In this document: positions 10,709 to 38,395 of the stretch, piece by piece
Position numbering within the stretch: the first letter of the stretch is position 1
How the letters are laid out: each line of letters begins with the position of its first letter
Assembly (NCBI RefSeq): GCF_039851975.1
Contig: NZ_CP156660.1
Span: 3,291,035 to 3,355,034, forward strand
Length of the DNA stretch: 64,000 bases
Source of the DNA: Desulfoscipio sp. XC116
GTDB taxonomy: Bacteria > Bacillota > Desulfotomaculia > Desulfotomaculales > Desulfallaceae
Direction: 5' to 3'
The notes under the pieces: model-generated
Database searches by the model: none
What the model was told of the DNA's origin: nothing
What the model saw: only the letters and a program-made list of their open reading frames with translations
Made by a program: the position numbers and the translations under genes

Positions 10709-12528
10709 GCATATACCAAACACACATAACCGATGTACTAATCGTAGGTGCGGGCCTGGCCGGTGAAAGAATTGCCGTGGAGGCGGCTTCCGCGGGACAT
10801 GATGTGACACTGCTCAGCCTGGTGCCGCCGCGCCGTTCGCACAGTACCGCAGCCCAGGGAGGCATGCAGGCATCTTTGGGCAATTGCGCCATGGGCGAAG
10901 GCGATAACTCCGATGTACACTTTGCAGACACCGTAAAAGGTTCCGACTGGGGCTGTGACCAGGAAGTAGCCAGGCTGTTCGTAGAAAACGCCCCCCTGGC
11001 GGTTAGGGAAATGGCCATCTGGGGTGTACCCTGGAACCGTGTGGTAGCGGGCCAGAGAAAGCTCCCCGACGGCAGAATGCTGGAAGAGAAAAAAGAAAAA
11101 GAGGGGTTAATCACCGCCCGGGACTTCGGCGGCACCGCCAAATGGCGCACCTGTTATACCGCTGACGGCACGGGACATACCCTGCTATATACTATGGACA
11201 GCATGGTGATTAAAATGGGCATCACGGTGCATGACCGCACCGAGGCCATCTCTCTTATTCACGACGGGGAGCAATGCATTGGCGTGGTGGCCCGCTGCCT
11301 GCGTACAGGCGACCTGCGGGTTTATATAGCCAAAACCACTGTCATCTGCACCGGCGGCTACGGCCGGCTGTACAGCGCCTCAACCAACGCTGTTATAAAC
11401 GAAGGCAACGGCATGTTCGTGGCCCTGAACACAGGCATCATTCCCCTTGGTAATATGGAAGCAGTTCAATTTCACCCCACAGGCATGGTGCCGGTATGGA
11501 TTCTCATTACCGAAGGTGCCCGGGGCGACGGCGGCTACTTGCTGGATAAAAACAAATACCGCTTTATGCCGGATTATGAGCCCAAGAAGAAAGAACTGGC
11601 CTCCCGGGACGTGGTGTCCCGCCGCATGACCCAGCATATACGGGCCGGTCACGGCGTAGACAGCCCTTACGGCCCACACCTGTGGCTGGATATCCGGCAC
11701 CTGGGTGCCCAGCATATCAATACTAATTTACGGGAAATCGCCAACATTGCCCGCAATTTTGCCGGCGTCGACCCGGTTAAAGATTTAATCCCCGTGCGGC
11801 CCACCCAGCACTACAGCATGGGCGGCGTACGCACCAATAAGGACGGCGCCGCTTACGGTCTGAAAAACCTGTTTGCCGCAGGCGAGGCAGCTTGCTGGGA
11901 CCTGCACGGTTTCAACCGCCTGGGCGGCAACTCCCTGGCTGAAACTATTACGGCCGGCCGGATTATCGGTAAAAAAGTGGCCGAATATACTAAAGACGCC
12001 ACCTTGTCATACAGTTACAAACTGGTTGATGACGCTGTTAAAGAGCAGGAGAACCGCATCAAAGCACTGGTGCACGGTTGGAACGGCAAAGAAAACGTAT
12101 ATGATGTCCGCAACGAGATGGAAAAGAATCTAATGGACTACGTGGGTATTTTCCGCAATGGTACAGATTTGCAGAAAGCCGTCGATAACCTGCGGGAAGT
12201 ATATCACCGCTCGCTCAAGATCGGTTTAGAATCCAACGGCGAAGGACCCAACCCGGAACTGGCTCAGGCACTGCGCATGACCGGCATGGTCCGCCTGGCG
12301 CTATGCATAGCCTATGGCGCACTGACGCGCACGGAAAGCCGCGGCAGCCACGCCCGGGAGGATTATCCCAAGCGGGATGACACCAACTGGCTTAAGCGCA
12401 CTTTGGCTTACTGGCCCCAAGATGCAGATCTGCCCGAATTGAAATATGAGCCCGTCAAGATCACCGAACTGCCACCTGGGGACCGCGGTTACGGCGAATC
12501 CTCGGCTCAATCAAAAGGAGGCAAATAA
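10705..12528 (+). CDS. frdA: fumarate reductase/succinate dehydrogenase flavoprotein subunit, 607 aa
   Basis: Cytoplasmic catalytic subunit. The Rossmann GAGLAGE motif is at residues 16-22. His46 in RSHSTAAQGG is the covalent-FAD histidine. The active-site HGFNRLGGNSLAE motif is near residue 405, and the C-terminal domain carries the conserved R-G-S-H-A-R-E-D-Y-P segment. Length is normal. The start overlaps frdC (ATGA) and the stop overlaps frdB by one base (TAATG), a tightly coupled operon. Confidence 0.95.
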   Translation: MSIYQTHITDVLIVGAGLAGERIAVEAASAGHDVTLLSLVPPRRSHSTAAQGGMQASLGNCAMGEGDNSDVHFADTVKGSDWGCDQEVARLFVENAPLAVREMAIWGVPWNRVVAGQRKLPDGRMLEEKKEKEGLITARDFGGTAKWRTCYTADGTGHTLLYTMDSMVIKMGITVHDRTEAISLIHDGEQCIGVVARCLRTGDLRVYIAKTTVICTGGYGRLYSASTNAVINEGNGMFVALNTGIIPLGNMEAVQFHPTGMVPVWILITEGARGDGGYLLDKNKYRFMPDYEPKKKELASRDVVSRRMTQHIRAGHGVDSPYGPHLWLDIRHLGAQHINTNLREIANIARNFAGVDPVKDLIPVRPTQHYSMGGVRTNKDGAAYGLKNLFAAGEAACWDLHGFNRLGGNSLAETITAGRIIGKKVAEYTKDATLSYSYKLVDDAVKEQENRIKALVHGWNGKENVYDVRNEMEKNLMDYVGIFRNGTDLQKAVDNLREVYHRSLKIGLESNGEGPNPELAQALRMTGMVRLALCIAYGALTRTESRGSHAREDYPKRDDTNWLKRTLAYWPQDADLPELKYEPVKITELPPGDRGYGESSAQSKGGK

Positions 12529-13289
12529 TGGCTGATCGTGAGTTAACCTTTGAAATATTTCGTTATAATCCTGCCAGACCCGAAATTAAGCCGCACATGC
12601 AGACATATAAACTCAAAGAAACCACGGGCATGACCATATTTGTGGCACTGAATATGATTCGGGAACAACAGGACCCGTCATTGATGTTTGACTTCGTGTG
12701 CCGGGCCGCCATTTGCGGCTCCTGCGCCATGATCATCAACGGGCGTCCCAAACTGGCTTGCAAAACGCTAACCAATACACTGCCCAAGAAAATAAAACTA
12801 TTCCCGCTGCCCGTGTTTAAATTAATCGGCGATTTGTCCGTGGACACCGGCACCTGGTTCAGGAACCTGTCTCTGAAAACCGAATCATGGGTGCATACCG
12901 GCAAAACCTTTGATTCCGCCAAGCAGGAAGAGCACATGGACAATAAAACCGCCCTGGAGATATACGAGGCGGAACGCTGCATTGAGTGCGGCTGCTGTAT
13001 ATCGGGCTGTGCTACCGCCAATATCCGGGACGAGTTTTTAGGCGCGGCGGGCATCAACCGGGTAGCCCGGTTCATGGTGGACCCCCGGGATGAACGCACT
13101 CCGGAGCAATATTTTGAAATAGTAGGCTGCGAGGAAGGGACCTTCGGCTGCATGGGCCTAATGGCCTGTGACGATAACTGTCCCATGGAACTGCCCCTGC
13201 AGATGCAACTGGCTTTTGTCCGGCGCAAGATGGCTTCCATCGGCTTGGGCATTAAGCAGGAGAGTAAAATTAAAATGGGAATCGGCTAA
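12528..13289 (+). CDS. frdB: fumarate reductase/succinate dehydrogenase iron-sulfur subunit, 253 aa
   Basis: Carries electrons between FrdA and the hemes of FrdC. The [2Fe-2S] cysteines are C58, C63, C66 and C78. The CIECGCCISGC motif (C150, C153, C156, C160) and the later C200, C207, C213 and C217 provide the [4Fe-4S] and [3Fe-4S] ligands. Last gene of the operon. The coding strand overlaps frdA by one base, and the ribosome-binding site AAAGGAGGC lies within frdA. Confidence 0.95.
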   Translation: MADRELTFEIFRYNPARPEIKPHMQTYKLKETTGMTIFVALNMIREQQDPSLMFDFVCRAAICGSCAMIINGRPKLACKTLTNTLPKKIKLFPLPVFKLIGDLSVDTGTWFRNLSLKTESWVHTGKTFDSAKQEEHMDNKTALEIYEAERCIECGCCISGCATANIRDEFLGAAGINRVARFMVDPRDERTPEQYFEIVGCEEGTFGCMGLMACDDNCPMELPLQMQLAFVRRKMASIGLGIKQESKIKMGIG

Positions 13290-28984: not shown

Positions 28985-31900
28985 CTATCCGGCAACGTCC
29001 TCACAGAAGCGCATGAGGATAGAGGCCACCTCGGCCCTTGTGGCGGTACCGTCCGGCGCAAGGCCGGTCGCCGTGCGGCCCGTAATCAGGCCCGCGGCGT
29101 TGGCCCATTGCACGGCCTCCCGCGCCCAGTCGCTAACCTTGGCAGCGTCGTTAAAAGCCGCCAGATCAGTTGTGGCTGTCACATCATAGCCTTTATGCCT
29201 GGCGTAGTTATGCAGAATCGCCGCCATTTGCTGGCGGGTAACGCTGTCGTTCGGTCCGAACAGCCCGCCGCCGTAGCCGGTCACGATGCCTTCGGCATTG
29301 GCCCAGATAACGGCGTCGGTGTACCACTGGCCGCTCCTTGCGTCGGTGAAGCTGTTGCTGCCCGTGACGGCAGGCTCGCCTTCCAGGCGGTACAGAACGG
29401 TCACCAGCATGGCCCGGGTCATCGGTTCATTGGGGCTGAAAGCCGTGGCGCTTGTGCCGCTGAACAAGTCGTTCCGCACAGCAAAAGCCACGCTGTTATA
29501 GAACCAGTCGGCCGGCTTCACGTCGGTGAAGGGGTTGGCCCAGGCCGGCGTTACAGCTTCCCGCGCTGCCTCGGCATAGCCCACCACGTAGCAGGACAGG
29601 TGGTCCGTGGTGAAGATGGCCATCCCGGTTCCCGGGTCGTAAGTGCAAGCTATCTGCTCCAGCTCTCCAGCATCGTTCAGGTACCAGACGGTGACTCCTG
29701 CCGGGTCTTCTCCCTCTTGCAGGGTATAGGGGAGGGAGACGGTGATGCTCTTTCCTCCGAATCCGGAGATGTTCGTTCCTCCGCTCGTGACATTGAGGTC
29801 ATAGACCGGGTTATCTCCCGCCGCCTCTTGCTGCTTCGCTGTCAGGGAGGAGTTGTCCACACGCGCCAGACTCACCGTGACCGCGCTTCCTTTAGCTTGG
29901 GAGGCGATGGAGGCCAGAGCGCTGTTGGGGATGGTGAGGCTGCCGACGGCGGTCTTCACTACCAGATTGGCGTCCGTCTCCGTAGCAATGGAGGCCAGGG
30001 ATTCCCTGGGCATGTTCACGCTGATCTTGCTTGCCGTTCCCGCGATCTCCGGGGCAATCAGAATGGAAGCGCCGCCGTTTTTCTTGGCCGCGGCAATCGC
30101 GGACGCCATATCGGCCGCCGAGACGGTTGCCGACGCAACGCCGTTCTTCGCCGTAACCTTCGGAGCTAAAGCGGCGGAATCCGATGCGGCCGTCGGGGTG
30201 CCGCCGCCCCACTTCTCGGTGCCTTCTTCCTGGGTATAGTCGTCGGTGTAATGGAACACAATTCTATCTTCATTTTCCAGGAACTGTTCCGCGACACCGA
30301 GTGACGGATGCGTACCGTTGAGGGTATACATCCAGCCCGAAAGTCCTCCATTGGTGAGTTCCGCAAGCGTCACGCCGTCCTTGGTTATTGATTCCACATA
30401 GTTGCCGTTCGGGTTTGAGTATCTCCAACCTTTCTCGTCAAGAGCGGTTTTTAAAACGTCCCAAACCGTCGCGTTCAAGTCAACCTCGTACGCGGTCCGC
30501 GGAATCCAGGTTTTCAGGTTGTTGTTCTTCAAGGTTTGCGGAGTGCCCGTATAATCTTTGCCGCGCGCGTCGGCGCCCAATAGTGTCAAATAGACCTTGA
30601 TGGTATTCTGATCCGGGTCCGGACCCGGGCGGATCAAAACAGTTACTGTCAATTCCGCCGTCGCCGCGCCGTAGGCAAGCGTCACCGTCTTTACCCCGCG
30701 GGTTGAACTGTCATAGCCGGACACTTTAACGTCGCTCAACGCCGGCTTGGTTTCGGCGCCGTCCGACCAGTGCGCCGTAATGTCAATACCGGACAGGTCG
30801 AGAGGTTCGTCAATGTAGTACTGGGTCTTGTACTCGCCGGAGAGTTCCAAGCTATGGACAATTGGCTCGCTGCTCAAATACGGGTATTTTTCGCCCTGGC
30901 ACCAATTCCTGTAACTTGTCTCAGAGCCGTTCAGGAGCTTGACAACCGTACCGTCAGCAAATTGCGCTGCGCTCATGGGCTTGCAGACATCGTTAATAAC
31001 GAATTCGTCCGCTATTCCCCACTGCTCGCCATATTCGCTGTGGTCGGTGTAAATAATGGTGCCGATATACCCAATGCCGTTTTTCTCACTGCCGCCGGTG
31101 TCATGAAAATAGTTGTTGGAAATATGTTGCGCCTTATCGACACTGCGCAGGAAGCCCACGATACCACCGGCAAATTTGCCGCTGGCGCCGGCAATGGTGC
31201 TCTCCTTGTCCGCGCTGACTTGTCCGATGAACGCGTTATCGGTAATCCAACTTTCGTTCCAAGCGCAGACCAAGCCGCTTTCGCCGCCGAACACGCCGCC
31301 CACGGCGTTGCCGCCCGAAATGCTGCCGATTACCAGGCAGTTCCGAATCGTGACGGGGACTGGGTTAGCACACCCCCCATACCCCATACTGAGTATGCCG
31401 CCCGCGAACCTTCCGGAGGCGTGTACGTTGCCCTGGAATAACGAGTTGTATATCATACAGTCGCCCATCGACTGACCTTTTGCACCCACCAGACCGCCCA
31501 CATAATCTGCTCCGTAAACGTTTGCGTAACTGGCGCTGGATTTTATCACGCCGTTAAGTTCCCCGACAAAAGAGCCAATAGCCTTAGAGTTGCGATCGTA
31601 GCCAACGATTACATCTTCCTCTACCGTGCAATTGGTAATGCTAATATCATTTACACTTGAACCGGAGCCCTGCAGCAATCCGGACCGCAGCGTACTGCTG
31701 CCGGATTGCAGGGTAACCTTGTCCAGGGTGATCATAGCCGGGTCGCCCACCGCATATTCGCCGTCCGTGCCATAGTCGACAAATAATTTGTCCACAAGAC
31801 CGGCGCCGGCAATCTTAACGCCGTAGATATTCAAATTTTTCACCGTGGCGCTGCGGACATAATTAAAAAGCGGCAGTCCGTTTTCCGGCACGGTAATGGT

Positions 31901-34453
31901 GTGTCCGTCGCCATCCAGCCTGCCGCTGAACGGCGCCACATTTTTACCGTTTTGAGGGTTTAGATAGGTTTTGCCTTCTATTGTTTGCGTAATAGTCGGG
32001 TCGATTATCTCACCGAGAGGCTCCCAGCCAACGGGCAGAGTAATATCCGCGGTCAGCTTGAAATGCTGTCCTTCAAGATAGTAGCCGTCCTTTATGAGTG
32101 CCCGGATGGCCTCCAGATCGGCAACGGACGTAATCAAATACGGATCGGAGGATTTTCCCGAACCGGCCAGCGGCACGAGGTCGCCCATTTCAGAAAAGGT
32201 TATCTCCAAAAAATCGCTTACCGTCTCAACCGGCTCGCATCCAGCGGCGTATGCTTTGGCAACGACATAGTAATAATACGTCCCGGGTTCCTCTTGGGCG
32301 AATGATTCGAAAATACGTTTAAATCCATGTATATCCCCAACATTGTACGGCCCGCTAGTATCAGGGTAATCGTTTACCAAAACACCGTTCTCTGTGCTTG
32401 CGGTTGTATTATAGAACAATGCATAGGATACATTATTTACTGTAGAAACCCCTTCGTCAGGCGCGTATACAGCAAATCTAACTGATTCCGGCTTCTCATT
32501 GCAAAAATAGCTTTTCTTGTAATCTCCGTGTCCCGGCTGCAAAAGAAATACGATTGGAGATATATAGGTCAGATTGACCGTCGCCCGCGCCCTGTCGGTA
32601 ATCGTTTGATACTCGACTCCGTTTACCGTGTTTTTCACGATGCAGTCATAATCATACGTGCTGGCGTAGCTCGTAGGAACAGAATAGGCGGCTTCCGTTG
32701 CGCCGTTTATGAAAACAGGATTTGCGTTTGAAGTGTACCGTCTCCACTGATAGCTCAATGTTCCGGACTCGGGTGTTTGGACTTGCACAGACAGTTCGGC
32801 ATCCTCATCTTTTTCACAGTTGACATTCGCCGGTTGTCCGGTGATAACGGGAGAATGATCAAACAAGCTGACCGTCAGCGTATACTCCGTGTCCGCGCCG
32901 GCGCCGGAGCCCTCATAGCGGAGGTTGATGGGAATGGTAATTTTATTGTCAACCACGTTAAAGTCGCCAAGGGTAATCCGGTGCGGCTGGGCAGGGTCGT
33001 CCACCTTCCGATCCCCGATATACACCGCCGTGTCCTTAAGGGTTCTTGGAAGGGCGGTAATCTTCAGCGCCTCGGTTCCCTCCGGCACAACCGCAGTATA
33101 TTGGCGGGTGTGAATGTTTTTCGTTTCGGGGACACTTACCGTCCAGCTTGGCGTGGTGTCGTACTTAATATCGGCATCGGTTGCGTCGGTGATCAACAGC
33201 GATTTAAGGGCTTCCTCACGCCGGACGGTGAAGTCATAGGTATCTGTTTGCTTGTATGTTCCGCCGTCTTTGATACCAATGACAATGGAAAATTGCAGCG
33301 GCGATGCGGAATCAAGCTTACACCCAGTAAAAAGAGTAGCCGGACTGATAGAAGTGACGCCATGCTTTGCGTCACTTGCCGCCGCTTCTTTTACTTGCGA
33401 GCCCGACTTCATTATTTTCACATACACGTTTTCCGGCAAATTGTTCCCCCAGGTTATATCAATCTTGTAAAGGCTTTGCCCGTCGGTCACGTTTATGCGG
33501 TAATCGGTGGTATGCGGGCTAAAAGTAAAATTAGGCACATCGGGGGAAACGATGCCGCTCTGAGTTGCATAGATTCTCAAATTTGAAATATAATTGTATA
33601 CATCTTCGGTCACCGTCACGCCGGCAATATTGCTGGCCGCCGCGGCCGTGCCGGTTTCGAGGGTGTGGGTGGCGATGGCATAATAGTAAACCGCGCCCGC
33701 CACCGTCGTGGACGGGGTATAGCTGGCGGCCGCGGCCGCCGCGATGGGCGTTCCGCCGTCGACACTGTTGGTGGTGTTGCTGTACCACTGGTAGGTGATC
33801 GCACCCCCGTCCGCCGCGTATGTGGCGACCCGCACCGTGAGGGCGTCCGCCGCAGCGCCGACGCTGTAGGTAACAACGTCCGGACTGAGATCCTGCGTGA
33901 AGAAGAGCGCCGCCGGCGCTTTCTCCGCCGCTGGAGCCTCTTCCGGCGTTGCCCCGCCCGCCGGCGCTTCGGTCACCATTACGCCGGCAATGCTGCTGGC
34001 CGCCGTGGCCGTGCCGGTTTCGAGGGTGTTAGTGACGATGGCGTAATAGTAGACCGTGCCCGCCGCCGTCGTGGGCGGCGTGTAGCTGGCGGCCGCGGCC
34101 TCCGCGATCGGCGTTCCGCCGTCGACGCTGTTGGTGGTGTTGCTGTACCACTGGTAAGTGATCGCGCCCCCGTCCGCCGCGTATGTGGCGGCCCGCACCG
34201 TGAGGGCGTCCGCCGCGGCGCCGACGCTGTAGGTGACAACGTCCGGGCTGAGATCACGGGTAAAGAAAGGCGCCGCCGGTCCCTTTTCATCCGGCGAGGC
34301 GCTTCCCGGTGTTGCCCCGTTCGCAGGCGCTTCGGCCGCCGTCACACCGGCGATGCCGCCGCCCGCCATGGCCGTGCCGGGCAGCGCCGCGAATAGCATG
34401 ACCAGCGTCAGCAACAGTGCCAAATAACGCTTGGAAACTTTTTTGTATTTCAA
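28985..34453 (-). CDS. SLH-anchored multi-domain surface protein with DUF4430-like domain, 1822 aa
   Basis: Large exported protein. The signal peptide ends near residue 30 (LFAALPGTAMA). Two ~121-residue near-identical repeats start near 63 and 184. Beta-rich regions follow at 283-530, then an Ig-like domain (531-640), a GLUG-like region (758-1185), a bacterial Ig-like domain (1198-1280) and a DUF4430-like (transcobalamin C-like) domain (1283-1410; V-W-D-V-L, L-S-G-W-M-Y-T-L-N-G, F-x-Y-T-D-D). Three SLH repeats (1638-1822) would tie it to the cell wall. The TTG at 34453 follows GGGGGAG. It lies downstream of another DUF4430-like secreted protein and a cobalamin riboswitch, so surface corrinoid binding is plausible. 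GC content is clearly above the flanks. Confidence 0.85.
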   Translation of the reverse strand: MKYKKVSKRYLALLLTLVMLFAALPGTAMAGGGIAGVTAAEAPANGATPGSASPDEKGPAAPFFTRDLSPDVVTYSVGAAADALTVRAATYAADGGAITYQWYSNTTNSVDGGTPIAEAAAASYTPPTTAAGTVYYYAIVTNTLETGTATAASSIAGVMVTEAPAGGATPEEAPAAEKAPAALFFTQDLSPDVVTYSVGAAADALTVRVATYAADGGAITYQWYSNTTNSVDGGTPIAAAAAASYTPSTTVAGAVYYYAIATHTLETGTAAAASNIAGVTVTEDVYNYISNLRIYATQSGIVSPDVPNFTFSPHTTDYRINVTDGQSLYKIDITWGNNLPENVYVKIMKSGSQVKEAAASDAKHGVTSISPATLFTGCKLDSASPLQFSIVIGIKDGGTYKQTDTYDFTVRREEALKSLLITDATDADIKYDTTPSWTVSVPETKNIHTRQYTAVVPEGTEALKITALPRTLKDTAVYIGDRKVDDPAQPHRITLGDFNVVDNKITIPINLRYEGSGAGADTEYTLTVSLFDHSPVITGQPANVNCEKDEDAELSVQVQTPESGTLSYQWRRYTSNANPVFINGATEAAYSVPTSYASTYDYDCIVKNTVNGVEYQTITDRARATVNLTYISPIVFLLQPGHGDYKKSYFCNEKPESVRFAVYAPDEGVSTVNNVSYALFYNTTASTENGVLVNDYPDTSGPYNVGDIHGFKRIFESFAQEEPGTYYYYVVAKAYAAGCEPVETVSDFLEITFSEMGDLVPLAGSGKSSDPYLITSVADLEAIRALIKDGYYLEGQHFKLTADITLPVGWEPLGEIIDPTITQTIEGKTYLNPQNGKNVAPFSGRLDGDGHTITVPENGLPLFNYVRSATVKNLNIYGVKIAGAGLVDKLFVDYGTDGEYAVGDPAMITLDKVTLQSGSSTLRSGLLQGSGSSVNDISITNCTVEEDVIVGYDRNSKAIGSFVGELNGVIKSSASYANVYGADYVGGLVGAKGQSMGDCMIYNSLFQGNVHASGRFAGGILSMGYGGCANPVPVTIRNCLVIGSISGGNAVGGVFGGESGLVCAWNESWITDNAFIGQVSADKESTIAGASGKFAGGIVGFLRSVDKAQHISNNYFHDTGGSEKNGIGYIGTIIYTDHSEYGEQWGIADEFVINDVCKPMSAAQFADGTVVKLLNGSETSYRNWCQGEKYPYLSSEPIVHSLELSGEYKTQYYIDEPLDLSGIDITAHWSDGAETKPALSDVKVSGYDSSTRGVKTVTLAYGAATAELTVTVLIRPGPDPDQNTIKVYLTLLGADARGKDYTGTPQTLKNNNLKTWIPRTAYEVDLNATVWDVLKTALDEKGWRYSNPNGNYVESITKDGVTLAELTNGGLSGWMYTLNGTHPSLGVAEQFLENEDRIVFHYTDDYTQEEGTEKWGGGTPTAASDSAALAPKVTAKNGVASATVSAADMASAIAAAKKNGGASILIAPEIAGTASKISVNMPRESLASIATETDANLVVKTAVGSLTIPNSALASIASQAKGSAVTVSLARVDNSSLTAKQQEAAGDNPVYDLNVTSGGTNISGFGGKSITVSLPYTLQEGEDPAGVTVWYLNDAGELEQIACTYDPGTGMAIFTTDHLSCYVVGYAEAAREAVTPAWANPFTDVKPADWFYNSVAFAVRNDLFSGTSATAFSPNEPMTRAMLVTVLYRLEGEPAVTGSNSFTDARSGQWYTDAVIWANAEGIVTGYGGGLFGPNDSVTRQQMAAILHNYARHKGYDVTATTDLAAFNDAAKVSDWAREAVQWANAAGLITGRTATGLAPDGTATRAEVASILMRFCEDVAG

Positions 34454-34478
34454 TTTTTGCTCTCCCCCTGTAAACATT

Positions 34479-34511
34479 GGGGGGAACGGGCAAAGCTGTT
34501 CCGTTCCCCCC
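34479..34511 (-). other. GC-rich hairpin between the two secreted-protein genes
   Basis: GGGGGGAACGG pairs with CCGTTCCCCCC around an 11-nt loop, without a T-run. A second GC-rich stem-loop follows on the plus-strand side near 34522-34558. They may slow RNA decay or lower expression of the SLH gene compared with the small protein. Confidence 0.5.
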
Positions 34512-34597
34512 GGTGCATGTCGCCCGCCGGCGGCCTTGGCCGTTATTGACGGCGGGTGTTTCGTGACAACTTGCGCCGCCGGTTAATCTTCATCCGG

Positions 34598-35230
34598 TTA
34601 ATCTTCATATGGATAGTAGAACGACAAAGTTGTGTAGTTCCAGGTAATGGTCATCCCATCCGTAAGCTCCACGTTTGACGCATAGAGACCGCTGGTCATC
34701 GTGGGGTCGGCCGGCACAACCACATTGCCGTCCGCGTCCCGCACTTCATAAAGCCAGGCGTCACCCTCCCAATATCCATCGTGCCCGGGAGTTGGAAGGT
34801 ATGAATTGCCCGAATCCGCCGTTACCATGTCGAACATCCCGTCCACCCATACCCCGCGCCACTCAACCGTGCCGTCCGCATGGGGTTTCTTATCCCAGCC
34901 CCAAATAAATTCATCGCCCGCTATACCCATTTCCTCAAATGCCTGCCAGGATGCGTCAAGTACCGAGGGGCGGTCAGCCGGAAAGACTACATGTTCATTA
35001 TAGTAGTTGTCCGGCGGCAACGTGTCGTGCCATTCATATGTGCTGTTGATGTCGAAGGGCACATTAACCGTAGTGGGCCATTCCGTTGGGTCCGCACCGT
35101 AAAATTCAACCACTACCGTAGCGTCAATGGTACTGTCTGCAAACGCGCTCGCGGGGAAACCCGCGAAAAGCGCGAATACCATAACCGCCGCAAACATAAG
35201 GCTCAGCAGCTTTTGTTTTTTGATTCTCAT
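34598..35230 (-). CDS. secreted DUF4430-like (transcobalamin C-like) protein, 210 aa
   Basis: The signal peptide (residues 1-32: MRIKKQKLL, hydrophobic core, ASAFA cleavage site) is followed by one compact beta-rich domain. The pattern V-L-D-A-S-W-Q-A-F then G-D-x-W-L-Y-E-V-R and finally L-T-D-G-M-T-I-T-W-N-Y matches DUF4430, a domain related to the C-terminal part of transcobalamin/intrinsic factor. It has no anchor motif, so it is free in the wall or released. The ATG at 35230 follows AGGAGG; the TTG at 35239 overlaps that site. First gene after the minus-strand cobalamin riboswitch, which strongly suggests a corrinoid-related role. The match is by eye. Confidence 0.7.
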   Translation of the reverse strand: MRIKKQKLLSLMFAAVMVFALFAGFPASAFADSTIDATVVVEFYGADPTEWPTTVNVPFDINSTYEWHDTLPPDNYYNEHVVFPADRPSVLDASWQAFEEMGIAGDEFIWGWDKKPHADGTVEWRGVWVDGMFDMVTADSGNSYLPTPGHDGYWEGDAWLYEVRDADGNVVVPADPTMTSGLYASNVELTDGMTITWNYTTLSFYYPYED

Positions 35231-35411
35231 AATAGACAATCCTCCTGTGATTTAATTTTTTTCCCGCTCGGTGAGTAGCCGCGCTAAATTATAAGCATCA
35301 CCTCTCACTGACAAAGTCCGATATCTGCACGGGGCTGAATTTTTGTTCTTTTGCCCCGGATTATGTTTTAAGTCTGAACACTAGCGTCGCAGCGCCGGTT
35401 GCTAAAACGAC

Positions 35412-35452
35412 AAAAAACGGCTGCGACAATCCCTTGGGATTGCCACAGCCGT
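35412..35452 (-). terminator. riboswitch-associated terminator (minus strand)
   Basis: ACGGCTGTGGCAATCCC and GGGATTGTCGCAGCCGT form a long stem followed by TTTTTTG on the minus strand. It lies ~60 bp downstream of the cobalamin aptamer, as expected for a transcriptional OFF switch. Confidence 0.85.
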
Positions 35453-35507
35453 ATTCCTGCGCCACACGATCAGCCCTGTCACCCGTTTGCCAACGGGCAG
35501 GGCCATT

Positions 35508-35700
35508 CCAAGCAGGTCTTCTGACTTGCGCCTATGGTAAAAAATTTCCTGCGGCCTACACCCTGCCTTCCCGGTTTCCCAGTGACCGACTTTCGTCGAC
35601 GGATGCGGCCTCGGCGCTCACAGCGGCGGTTCCGTCCGGGTTTTGCACCCGGTTCCCTATTCTTCCCCCGGGGCCGTACGCCCGGAGGGACACTTGAAAC
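35508..35700 (-). promoter_or_regulatory. cobalamin (B12) riboswitch, minus strand
   Basis: Read on the minus strand: the conserved core GGTGCAAAACCCGGACGG then CCGCCGCTGTGA, and the B12 box AGTCAGAAGACCTGC at 35512-35526, in the correct order for an adenosylcobalamin-type aptamer. A terminator follows at 35412-35452 and then the secreted DUF4430-like gene. It should switch off the two surface-protein genes when corrinoid is plentiful. Confidence 0.93.
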
Positions 35701-35919
35701 GATATGCAATTTTTTAGGCAATTAATTGATTGCATAAAAGCCTTGGTAATATTTACTACAGTTTAGCACATTATTTTCTATATTTCCAATATCTTTTTTT
35801 GAAAAAACTAAAAATTTATCGGACAATTGTTTTTAATTTCTCCGGGGAGTATCCTTCATTAAATAATAATAGACAAGATAACTGCATAGTGTTAATATAC
35901 ATAATAATTAAATAATTTG

Positions 35920-36090
35920 TTCAGGCGCCTCCGGTTATGCCGGGGGTGAAAAGGGAACTCGGGTGCAAATCCCGGACGGTCCGGCCACTGTAAGTGGGAA
36001 ACAACCTTTCAAATGCCACTGGGTATTATATTAGCCCGGGAAGGCGGGAGGATGTGCTTTTTACCATGAGTCAGGAGACCTGCCTGGGCA
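35920..36090 (+). promoter_or_regulatory. cobalamin (B12) riboswitch, plus strand
   Basis: GGTGCAAATCCCGGACGGTC and GGCCACTGTAAGTGGG, then the B12 box AGTCAGGAGACCTGCC at 36069-36084, form a typical cobalamin aptamer. A terminator follows at 36168-36205, and then cbiZ. It lies back to back with the minus-strand copy, about 220 bp apart. Confidence 0.95.
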
Positions 36091-36167
36091 AAGAATAAAG
36101 TATCGCCTTCCGTGGAAAGGTCAGGTGCTGACAGGGTGTGGACTTTAAGGTAGCATGCCTTTGGGAA

Positions 36168-36502: not shown

Positions 36503-37222
36503 ATGCTTGAAGAACTTACCGCCTTCAACTCCGATGTTCCGATTAAAGGTATTAGATTTTATCTGGCGGGGGGGCGTACTTTTTTAATTGTTTCTCTGCG
36601 CCGGTTAAAGATTTTAAGCTCTACGGTCATGGAGGTGAAGCGAAAGCGGGTCAATTTTATTATAAGCCATACTGTGGGAAAAAAATTCACCAGTGACAAT
36701 CCGGCTGAATATCTTGCCTGTTTGGCTAAAAAGATGAATTTGGGTGAACAGGTTTTGGGTTTAATGACGGCGGTTGACGTTAGACACACGGTAATGAGTT
36801 CCGATACAAAACGAGGACTGGCGGTGGCCACACTCTGCGCGGCCGAGGTGGATCGTGCCTGTTCGGACGAAGGTGTTGCCGCTCAGACAAGCATAACCGC
36901 GCCGGGTGCAATTAACCTAGTGGTTCTGATTGACGGGAATCTGTCCGAGGCTGCCATGCTCAACGCCTTAATCACGGCTGCGGAAGCCAAAACAATGGCG
37001 GTGATGCGGTCCGGCATTCGCCTGCCTTACGGTACACCGGCCGCAGGCGCCACCAATGACGCCATCGTCATCGCTTGCACCGGAAGAGGAAAACCGCACC
37101 CCTATGCCGGGGCGGCAACCGACCTGGGATTCTTAATTGGACGGACGGTGTACCGGTCGGTAACTTGGGGTATCGGTGACTGCTTGGTCGCTAACGGTGC
37201 TGCCAGGCTGAAAGGATGCTAA
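36503..37222 (+). CDS. cbiZ: adenosylcobinamide amidohydrolase, 239 aa
   Basis: CbiZ cleaves the aminopropanol side chain of (pseudo)cobamides or cobinamide to adenosylcobyric acid, allowing salvage and lower-ligand remodelling. Family marks are LSSTVMEVK near residue 38, D-V-R-H near 90, PGAINLVVLIDGNLSEAAM near 138-157, AGATNDAIVIACTGRG near 183-198, and the YAGAATDLGFLIGRTV segment near 203-219. Length is normal. The ATG at 36503 has a GGAGTGAG site. It is preceded by a cobalamin riboswitch and terminator, as expected for corrinoid-repressed salvage. Cytoplasmic. Confidence 0.9.
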   Translation: MLEELTAFNSDVPIKGIRFYLAGGRTFLIVSLRRLKILSSTVMEVKRKRVNFIISHTVGKKFTSDNPAEYLACLAKKMNLGEQVLGLMTAVDVRHTVMSSDTKRGLAVATLCAAEVDRACSDEGVAAQTSITAPGAINLVVLIDGNLSEAAMLNALITAAEAKTMAVMRSGIRLPYGTPAAGATNDAIVIACTGRGKPHPYAGAATDLGFLIGRTVYRSVTWGIGDCLVANGAARLKGC

Positions 37223-37420: not shown

Positions 37421-38395
37421 ATGTCGATCCATAGTTTATTATCGTCCGCCAGGCACGGGAGGTTACTAAATAAGGATGAAGCAATTAAATTGCTAAACAT
37501 TGATTACCGGAGCGAAGACTTTTACGAATTAATTTCTACTGCAAATTACATTTCCCGCACTAAATTTAACAACAAAGGGCTGGTTTTTGCTCAAATAGGC
37601 ATAAATGCCGAACCCTGTTCCGTTAACTGCAAATTTTGCTCCATGGGGCGAGACCATTATTCTTTACCCGTTACTTGGAGGAAAAACGCTGCAGAGATAT
37701 TGTCGGAGCTGGAATTATTCATTGCCAATGGTATTAACGACCTTTTCTTAATGACCACCGCCGATTACCCGGTCAGTAGCTTTCTGGAAACTTCCCAAGT
37801 GATAAGAAAGCACTTGCCTGATCATATTAGATTTGTTGCCAATATAGGAGATTTTAATTTTGAAGCTGCCAGGAAGCTTAAAGAGGCGGGATTTACAGGT
37901 GCTTATCATATTAACCGATTAAGAGAAGGTATTGACACCACAATAAAGCCTGAAACCAGGATAAATACTCTCAATGCCATTCGTGACGCCGGTTTAGACT
38001 TATATTACTGTGTTGAGCCCATTGGTCCGGAACATACATATGATGAATTGGTGACCGAAATGCTTAGAGCAAGATACTATAATGCTCAAGTAATGGCCGT
38101 TATGCGACGTATACCGGTCAAAGGAACACCCTTGTATGATAAGGGACAAATTCCCGCCATAGAGTTAACTAAAATAGCTGCCGTTGCCGGGATCGTCACC
38201 CTTCCCCCAAGAGCCATGAATGCCCATGAAGTTACCCCCATGACGCTACTAGCCGGTGTGAACCAACTTTATGCGGAATATGGAGCCAATCCAAGGGATA
38301 CAGAATCTGAAACTGAAAAAAACAGGGGTTTCTCAGTTGAACGGGCTTGGCACATGTTATGGGAAGCAGGTTACGAAATTACTAAACAAAATTAA
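37421..38395 (+). CDS. BioB/HydE-like radical SAM protein, 324 aa
   Basis: Radical SAM enzyme with the [4Fe-4S] motif C66-x3-C70-x2-C73 (PCSVNCKFC). The N-terminal Leu-rich entry, the G-F-T-G-A-Y-H-I-N-R-L-R-E-G segment and the EVTPMTLLAGVNQLYAEYGANPRD end resemble the biotin-synthase (BATS) branch. It keeps none of the standard biotin synthase [2Fe-2S] ligand pattern I would expect, so it is probably not BioB. It follows cbiZ by ~200 bp, so a corrinoid-related role is possible but unproven. The ATG follows AGGAGGAATAGGT. Confidence 0.8.
   Translation: MSIHSLLSSARHGRLLNKDEAIKLLNIDYRSEDFYELISTANYISRTKFNNKGLVFAQIGINAEPCSVNCKFCSMGRDHYSLPVTWRKNAAEILSELELFIANGINDLFLMTTADYPVSSFLETSQVIRKHLPDHIRFVANIGDFNFEAARKLKEAGFTGAYHINRLREGIDTTIKPETRINTLNAIRDAGLDLYYCVEPIGPEHTYDELVTEMLRARYYNAQVMAVMRRIPVKGTPLYDKGQIPAIELTKIAAVAGIVTLPPRAMNAHEVTPMTLLAGVNQLYAEYGANPRDTESETEKNRGFSVERAWHMLWEAGYEITKQN

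Follow-up and report, generated by a model that had tools for sequence, protein, structure and literature searches.

How might a bacterium that lacks an outer membrane gather corrinoids at its surface? Capture of corrinoids outside of the membrane, prior to their import, is seen with BtuFCD and with BtuG-type systems. For bacteria without an outer membrane, corrinoid gathering at the surface is, to our knowledge, poorly known. The question is raised by a locus of Desulfoscipio sp. XC116, located within a contiguous stretch of 64,000 nucleotides (hereafter ‘the window’), in which a cobalamin riboswitch precedes the genes of two exported proteins. Do these proteins serve to capture corrinoids and, if so, how closely do they resemble the transcobalamins, in which an alpha domain precedes a beta domain? 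The features of the locus, as positions within the window, are as follows.

28985..34477 (-): large S-layer-anchored protein (open reading frame of 1830 aa from ATG; 1822 aa from TTG at 34453)
29003..29533 (-): three S-layer homology (SLH) domains of the large protein (Pfam, three stretches, 114.4 bits)
30245..30472 (-): DUF4430, i.e., predicted transcobalamin-beta-type domain, large-protein residues 1336-1411 (Pfam, 41.8 bits)
30638..30832 (-): Big_3 Ig-like domain, large-protein residues 1216-1280 (Pfam, 44.2 bits)
31259..32170 (-): GLUG-type repeat region, large-protein residues 770-1073 (by alignment to the sequence L119)
33604..34266 (-): two direct repeats of 300 nt (91% alike), encoding a repeated domain early in the large protein
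34598..35230 (-): small secreted protein, 210 aa (open reading frame and start; hydrophobic, signal-peptide-like beginning, then a predicted transcobalamin-beta-like domain)
35417..35452 (-): intrinsic terminator directly downstream of the aptamer (expression platform; 16-pair stem and T-run)
35494..35712 (-): cobalamin riboswitch aptamer in the leader of the surface-protein genes (RF00174, 93 bits)
35906..36101 (+): second, divergent cobalamin riboswitch, in the cbiZ leader (RF00174, 122 bits)
36503..37222 (+): CbiZ, adenosylcobinamide amidohydrolase (PF01955, 145 bits)

Read along the minus strand, the order thus is riboswitch, terminator, 210-aa secreted protein and then large SLH protein. 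Both aptamers pass the Rfam gathering score of 31.5 bits, that of the surface-protein leader with an E value of 8e-22. A scan of the window for terminators returned four terminator-like sites versus a mean of 3.5 in shuffled sequences, and the terminator at 35452-35417 is accepted not because of that count but instead because its long stem adjoins the aptamer; the stretch containing it, 35380-35500, has a folding z of -4.7. The sequence-only reading had proposed just such a riboswitch and terminator ahead of two exported proteins, with cbiZ on the other side, and these proposals hold, as do its coordinates and its domain order, with cbiZ found as well to lie behind a riboswitch of its own. Located 3' of cbiZ, at 37421-38395, is a radical SAM gene which is BioB-like, though under family cut-offs.

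The large gene may be read from either of two starts, with the TTG at 34453 preceded by GGGGGAGAG and giving the 1822 residues which had been claimed for an SLH-anchored protein carrying a DUF4430-like domain; residue numbers from Pfam refer here to the 1830-aa frame. That claim is borne out, as the DUF4430 match (PF14478) lies well above its cut-off of 23.8 bits and is accompanied by the three SLH domains, with residues 1649-1822 matched in addition by a Sap S-layer protein. A fold model made from the DUF4430 part of the protein covered Big_3 only, and the DUF4430 call rests on Pfam; as a domain prediction we consider it to be safe. The GLUG-type region aligns with residues 33-278 of L119 at 27% identity, and Pfam sees GLUG in L119, whereas for the window protein it reports none at E up to 1. 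The direct repeats, given their 91% likeness, suggest a recent domain duplication within the large gene.

Less straightforward is the small protein. Its open frame spans 34598-35239 if begun at a TTG, while the ATG at 35230, which is preceded by AGGAGG, yields the 210 residues originally described, and no anchor is visible by eye in the translation. The protein was said to be DUF4430-like. Pfam reports zero families for it at E up to 1, so the PF14478 cut-off is not reached; NCBIfam supplies two matches only, both far under cut-off, of which the better spans residues 7-61. Comparison by hhalign of the protein's family (two sequences) with the DUF4430 alignment covers 33 columns, with a probability of 14.9 and an E value of 0.0018. 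Turning to structure, the AlphaFold model is of low confidence (pLDDT 52). Searched by Foldseek against 350,542 chains, that model nonetheless has transcobalamin at ranks 1-14, these being repeated entries of one protein family, followed at rank 15 by 3u7z; the best E value is 0.0086, with no match at 0.001. Similarly, VIA-align fills its rows 1-14 with the carriers transcobalamin, intrinsic factor and haptocorrin (Z of 6.8-7.4; identity of 10-15% across the aligned part); 3u7z has a Z of 6.1, and no unrelated chain scores above 5.7. All of these values are below the Z of 8 under which resemblance may reflect a common arrangement. It is because one family fills the top ranks, no single score being decisive, that we describe the small protein as transcobalamin-beta-like, that is, as having a fold which is supported by the ranking of a pLDDT 52 model. 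The original suggestion accordingly stands in terms of fold ranking and, weakly, via the protein's one clear relative, but not in terms of Pfam; the structural comparison suggested for it likewise came out in favor of the transcobalamin carriers by rank while falling short in model confidence, E value and Z.

That one relative, the only one found in a scan of genome contigs, is encoded by a Clostridiales Family XIII metagenome-assembled genome (MAG), L068, and is 44% identical to the small protein. It matches DUF4430 at 19.6 bits (E 0.0013), i.e., under the cut-off of 23.8. The large gene likewise has an orthologue in L068 (40% across 1599 columns), a sub-threshold cobalamin match is present upstream (20.8 bits versus a gathering score of 31.5; E 0.014 over all Rfam), and the string GAGTCAGGAGACC is present both in the L068 sequence and within the window's plus-strand riboswitch. 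The window cassette thus recurs in L068 as both genes plus a sub-threshold riboswitch. Elsewhere the small protein is scarce. Among 113 genomes of the class there is, besides itself, one weak match, in G293 (E 2.6e-4, residues 14-112), which is lost when 348 genomes of the phylum are searched, and the remaining matches from that latter search, found in 8 genomes, do not extend past model position 75.

A transcobalamin consists of more than its beta domain, however, and in neither the small nor the large window protein was an alpha/alpha-toroid found by an SLH-free profile at E up to 1, nor was PF01122 (eukaryotic cobalamin-binding) found in either by Pfam at E up to 1. With no toroid found, the window proteins are beta-domain-only relatives rather than transcobalamins, though they may work like transcobalamin. 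The description of them as transcobalamin-like surface proteins therefore holds for the DUF4430 or beta-type domain and not for the toroid half. Nor is an importer seen close by. Pfam was run on 27 proteins of the window, with an E limit of 1 for 7 of them and of 1e-10 for the other 20 (the window holds 54 open reading frames of at least 150 aa), and revealed among these no BtuFCD-type gene, in agreement with what had been noted earlier, and no gene for EcfT, EcfA or EcfS.

Is the pairing of DUF4430 with cobalamin riboswitches peculiar to this locus? It had been suggested that DUF4430 genes be surveyed behind such riboswitches, and the pattern which results is wider than had been claimed. Among 21 genomes of relatives, host included, 10 possess DUF4430, and 30 of the 31 matches in these relatives follow a same-strand cobalamin riboswitch at a distance of no more than 10 kb (for two of them, 9.8 and 9.95 kb). 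In a sample of the phylum, DUF4430 is found in 80 of 249 genomes; 77 of the 80 were searched here for riboswitches and the other 3 with the relatives, with 74 of the 77 having a listed DUF4430 match. Among matches listed, 111 of 140 have a cobalamin riboswitch no more than 10 kb upstream of them or, by genome, 58 of 74 have a riboswitch-linked DUF4430. As several matches can share one protein, the genome counts are the safer ones, and as only part of the candidates were scored in riboswitch-rich genomes, the riboswitch counts are lower bounds. A first batch of phylum genomes gave 43 of 54 listed matches as riboswitch-linked, versus approximately 0.35 expected by chance (a figure for that batch only, from rounded genome sizes). 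A second batch, in which riboswitch matches under the gathering score were kept given E up to 0.001, gave 68 of 86, with a wrong-side riboswitch within 10 kb for 16 of the 86. DUF4430 genes are, in short, strongly tied to cobalamin riboswitches.

The exceptions, i.e., those 29 of the 140 listed phylum matches with no riboswitch within 10 kb upstream, consist of 11 from the first batch and 18 from the second. Six of the 11 are found at contig ends (G046, G133 and G145) and the other five are not. In three of the exceptions (G077, G113 and G242), DUF4430 adjoins an EcfS-like gene and no riboswitch was found in these genomes; for G068 and for contig C10 of G173 no ECF gene was called nearby. Pairs of DUF4430 and EcfS-like genes are seen at L112:5481-6382 and L113:7535-8412, within genomes lacking a cobalamin riboswitch match, where they adjoin what by eye are decarboxylase-like and biotin-carrier-like genes. 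The ligand of these latter pairs may differ from a corrinoid.

What accompanies DUF4430 where it is riboswitch-linked was considered for 20 loci from 19 genomes, these hand-picked, most of them with paired DUF4430 matches, and so not a random sample. ECF subunits are present in 19 of the 20 and EcfT, EcfA and EcfS all together in 14, while CbiZ is present in 5, two of these confirmed by Pfam; in a further arrangement, L120, the order is riboswitch, DUF4430 lipoprotein, EcfS and PduO. DUF4430 genes thus are tied in part to CbiZ, PduO and ECF transporters. The EcfS proteins match a riboflavin-type S-component of Pfam above cut-off and folate- and riboflavin-type families of NCBIfam under cut-offs. 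By the SLH-free profile, from which all of these toroid counts are derived and several matches to which span only part of its length, an alpha/alpha-toroid domain is found at all 20 loci, in one chain with DUF4430 at 18 and alone at 10. The toroid lies wholly ahead of DUF4430 in 16 of the 18 chains, the order being mixed in two (L081 and L087).

This toroid, as judged by profile comparison, is of the squalene-cyclase and prenyltransferase kind. The PDB matches of its profile (A4) are to squalene cyclases, complement C4 and prenyltransferases, with no transcobalamin up to an E value of 5; of 10 toroid proteins, 2 match PF01122, and these weakly (best E 0.0034). The DUF4430 profile (A2) has as its best PDB match the beta region of transcobalamin-1 (E 0.016), with unrelated chains close behind (E 0.049), and the lipoprotein alignment (A3) found nothing useful there. 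No toroid was found in viral contigs, nor any DUF4430 lipoprotein on plasmids.

The host itself possesses at least 19 cobalamin riboswitches (150 of 238 candidates having been scored), and a number of these precede further DUF4430 genes. One operon (L028) encodes a protein with toroid, DUF4430 and SLH, the DUF4430 copies of which are two by Pfam and three by custom profile, together with a DUF4430 lipoprotein, EcfT, EcfA, EcfS and a lone toroid. Another riboswitch (L029) precedes the gene of a 1622-aa protein which combines a toroid with DUF4430 and SLH. This protein has in common with the window's large protein the part running from DUF4430 to SLH, at 47%, with GLUG-type repeats found upstream of that part in the window protein versus the toroid in the 1622-aa protein. 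A single riboswitch (L030) serves CbiZ plus a DUF4430 lipoprotein, and two riboswitch-linked proteins of about 410 aa (L034 and L036) have ends which match the custom DUF4430 profile, one of the two also matching Pfam DUF4430 under cut-off. BtuFCD-type genes are present too (L032), in the order BtuF-type and then BtuC- and BtuD-like, behind yet another cobalamin riboswitch. Candidate routes of import are thus available within the host, from the BtuFCD-type genes as well as from the ECF operon, and no unknown importer has to be invoked for the window pair. Finally, at C1:2761267-2761374 (within L006 and L031) a DUF4430 match falls within a short frame that is interrupted by a stop and near which no cobalamin riboswitch was found; this probably is a gene remnant.

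Other host observations may be recorded alongside. The BtuF-type binding protein (L032:4586-6082) has an N-terminal FMN_bind domain. Two CRISPR arrays of one repeat family (RF01315; L029:37-943 and 11454-12613, C1 at about 620-633 kb) flank the riboswitch and gene of the 1622-aa protein. Found behind cobalamin riboswitches as well are a 3008-aa surface protein with Flg_new repeats and GLUG (L039:6164-15190), a 2723-aa surface protein with Flg_new repeats (L040:3621-11792) and, as the second gene in its string, a 1443-aa RHS protein (L034:6328-10659), none of the three having a recognised DUF4430 domain. Cobalamin riboswitches also precede what by eye are oligopeptide/nickel-type ABC transporter-like genes (L044 from 6024 upwards and L042 from 12108 downwards).

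How does the window pair compare with systems already described? With transcobalamin, intrinsic factor and haptocorrin the likeness is that of a beta-type domain fold, as predicted for the pair, and the toroid-first order of those 16 bacterial two-domain chains is that of transcobalamin; the window proteins differ in being bacterial, in being S-layer-anchored or secreted, and in that no toroid was found in them. With BtuFCD and BtuG the proposed likeness is capture outside of the membrane before import, by domains whose folds are not known to be related, and with the window system S-layer-anchored whereas BtuG is an outer-membrane lipoprotein. For 3u7z, i.e., RUMGNA_00854, which is of the same fold family as the window domains and differs in being titled in the PDB as a ‘putative metal binding protein’, we know of no ligand role.

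From the literature, the beta domain of human transcobalamin (TC-beta) is able to bind CNCbl and cobinamide by itself, with TC-alpha and TC-beta co-eluting only with CNCbl (PMC5599065). DUF4430 is described as the C-terminal domain of transcobalamins, with short fish proteins made up of DUF4430 alone (PMC4350170), and CATH 2.170.130.30, for which 3u7z is named, includes transcobalamins and intrinsic factor (PMC13385337). Among ECF transporters, ECF-CbrT, which has an ECF S-component, carries cobalamin and cobinamide (PMC5997447), and CbrUVT is an ECF-type cobalamin transporter (PMC6593275); the 14 chosen loci at which EcfT, EcfA and EcfS all stand beside DUF4430 proteins resemble these, whereas no ECF gene was found at the window locus. 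A DUF4430 protein encoded beside rtpR has been reported, and an ‘additional lipoprotein component of putative cobalamin ECF transporter’ is listed in that same source (PMC9963975), the two being, we would guess, one protein. We found no mention of SLH-anchored giants, of a toroid partner or of a beta-only pair in these accounts of ECF transporters. Nor was a description of bacterial toroid-plus-DUF4430 proteins, or of S-layer forms, found in the literature searched, most subscription journals being outside of its scope.

Building on the riboswitch, terminator, domains, synteny and fold resemblance that are seen at the locus, we think it probable that the window genes represent a riboswitch-controlled corrinoid-capture cassette, the beta-type domains of which would hold corrinoids outside of the membrane. 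The regulation, binding and hand-over that we infer would be as follows. Abundant AdoCbl would occupy the leader aptamer, so that transcription would halt at the terminator; when corrinoids instead are short, the small secreted and the S-layer-anchored protein would be produced. Each beta-type (DUF4430) domain would hold cobalamin, pseudocobalamin or cobinamide near to the wall, the captured corrinoid then entering via the host's ECF or BtuFCD-type importer and, once imported, being remodelled by CbiZ, under the control of its own riboswitch. In the wider family, DUF4430 as joined to or accompanied by a toroid could form a transcobalamin-like clamp, either fused or in two parts, next to an ECF transporter; of this family the window pair would be a beta-only variant working without a toroid. 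More tentatively, that is, as something quite possible that we would stop short of calling probable, there may exist a Bacillota-type transcobalamin system in which toroid and DUF4430, whether within one chain or carried separately by S-layer proteins and lipoproteins, clasp a corrinoid at the cell surface and hand it over to an ECF transporter; the window pair would then be derived, with two toroid-less beta-type domains, one free and the other wall-bound.

Capture of corrinoids is not the only use to which a riboswitch might put surface proteins. It could instead govern a general remodelling of the surface (S-layer, adhesins), e.g., for sticking to corrinoid-producing partners, with DUF4430 being structural or protein-binding and not associating with corrinoids at all. 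Most of the large protein indeed is made up of repeats and of Ig-like and SLH domains, and the host's 3008-aa, 2723-aa and 1443-aa RHS proteins, with no recognised DUF4430, are similarly placed behind cobalamin riboswitches. We nevertheless view this as unlikely, since DUF4430 is repeatedly accompanied by corrinoid genes (of the 20 chosen loci, 19 have ECF subunits and 5 have CbiZ; PduO is found in L120) and since the small protein consists of a signal peptide, a predicted beta-type domain and little else.

The domains might also bind a different ligand (cobalt or another metal, or a haem-like or flavin-like cofactor) that is taken up by the ECF transporter. The metal-binding title of 3u7z, within the same fold family, would fit with that, as would the riboflavin-type Pfam match of EcfS, above cut-off, and its folate- and riboflavin-type NCBIfam matches, under cut-off. 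A B12 transporter, ECF-CbrT, likewise uses an ECF S-component, however (PMC5997447), and the riboswitch class, the CbiZ and PduO neighbours and the beta-domain fold all point toward corrinoids, leaving this alternative highly improbable. We assign the least credence, very little indeed, to the proteins binding corrinoids as an outside store, a decoy or a shared good, i.e., other than for uptake by the same cell. No anchor is visible by eye in the small protein, the large one is S-layer-bound and the scan of 27 window proteins turned up no B12-type importer nearby, all consistent with such a store, but related operons do include an importer, and a riboswitch plus terminator suggests expression upon shortage, which fits with scavenging and argues against storage outside.

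Should the corrinoid-capture reading be true, then DUF4430, a Pfam ‘domain of unknown function’, would be tied to a ligand, bacteria would have a counterpart to the B12 carriers of animals, and testable candidates would be available for corrinoid competition within anaerobic communities. The pairing of riboswitch and DUF4430 in many related bacteria points to a little-described surface capture of B12-type molecules.
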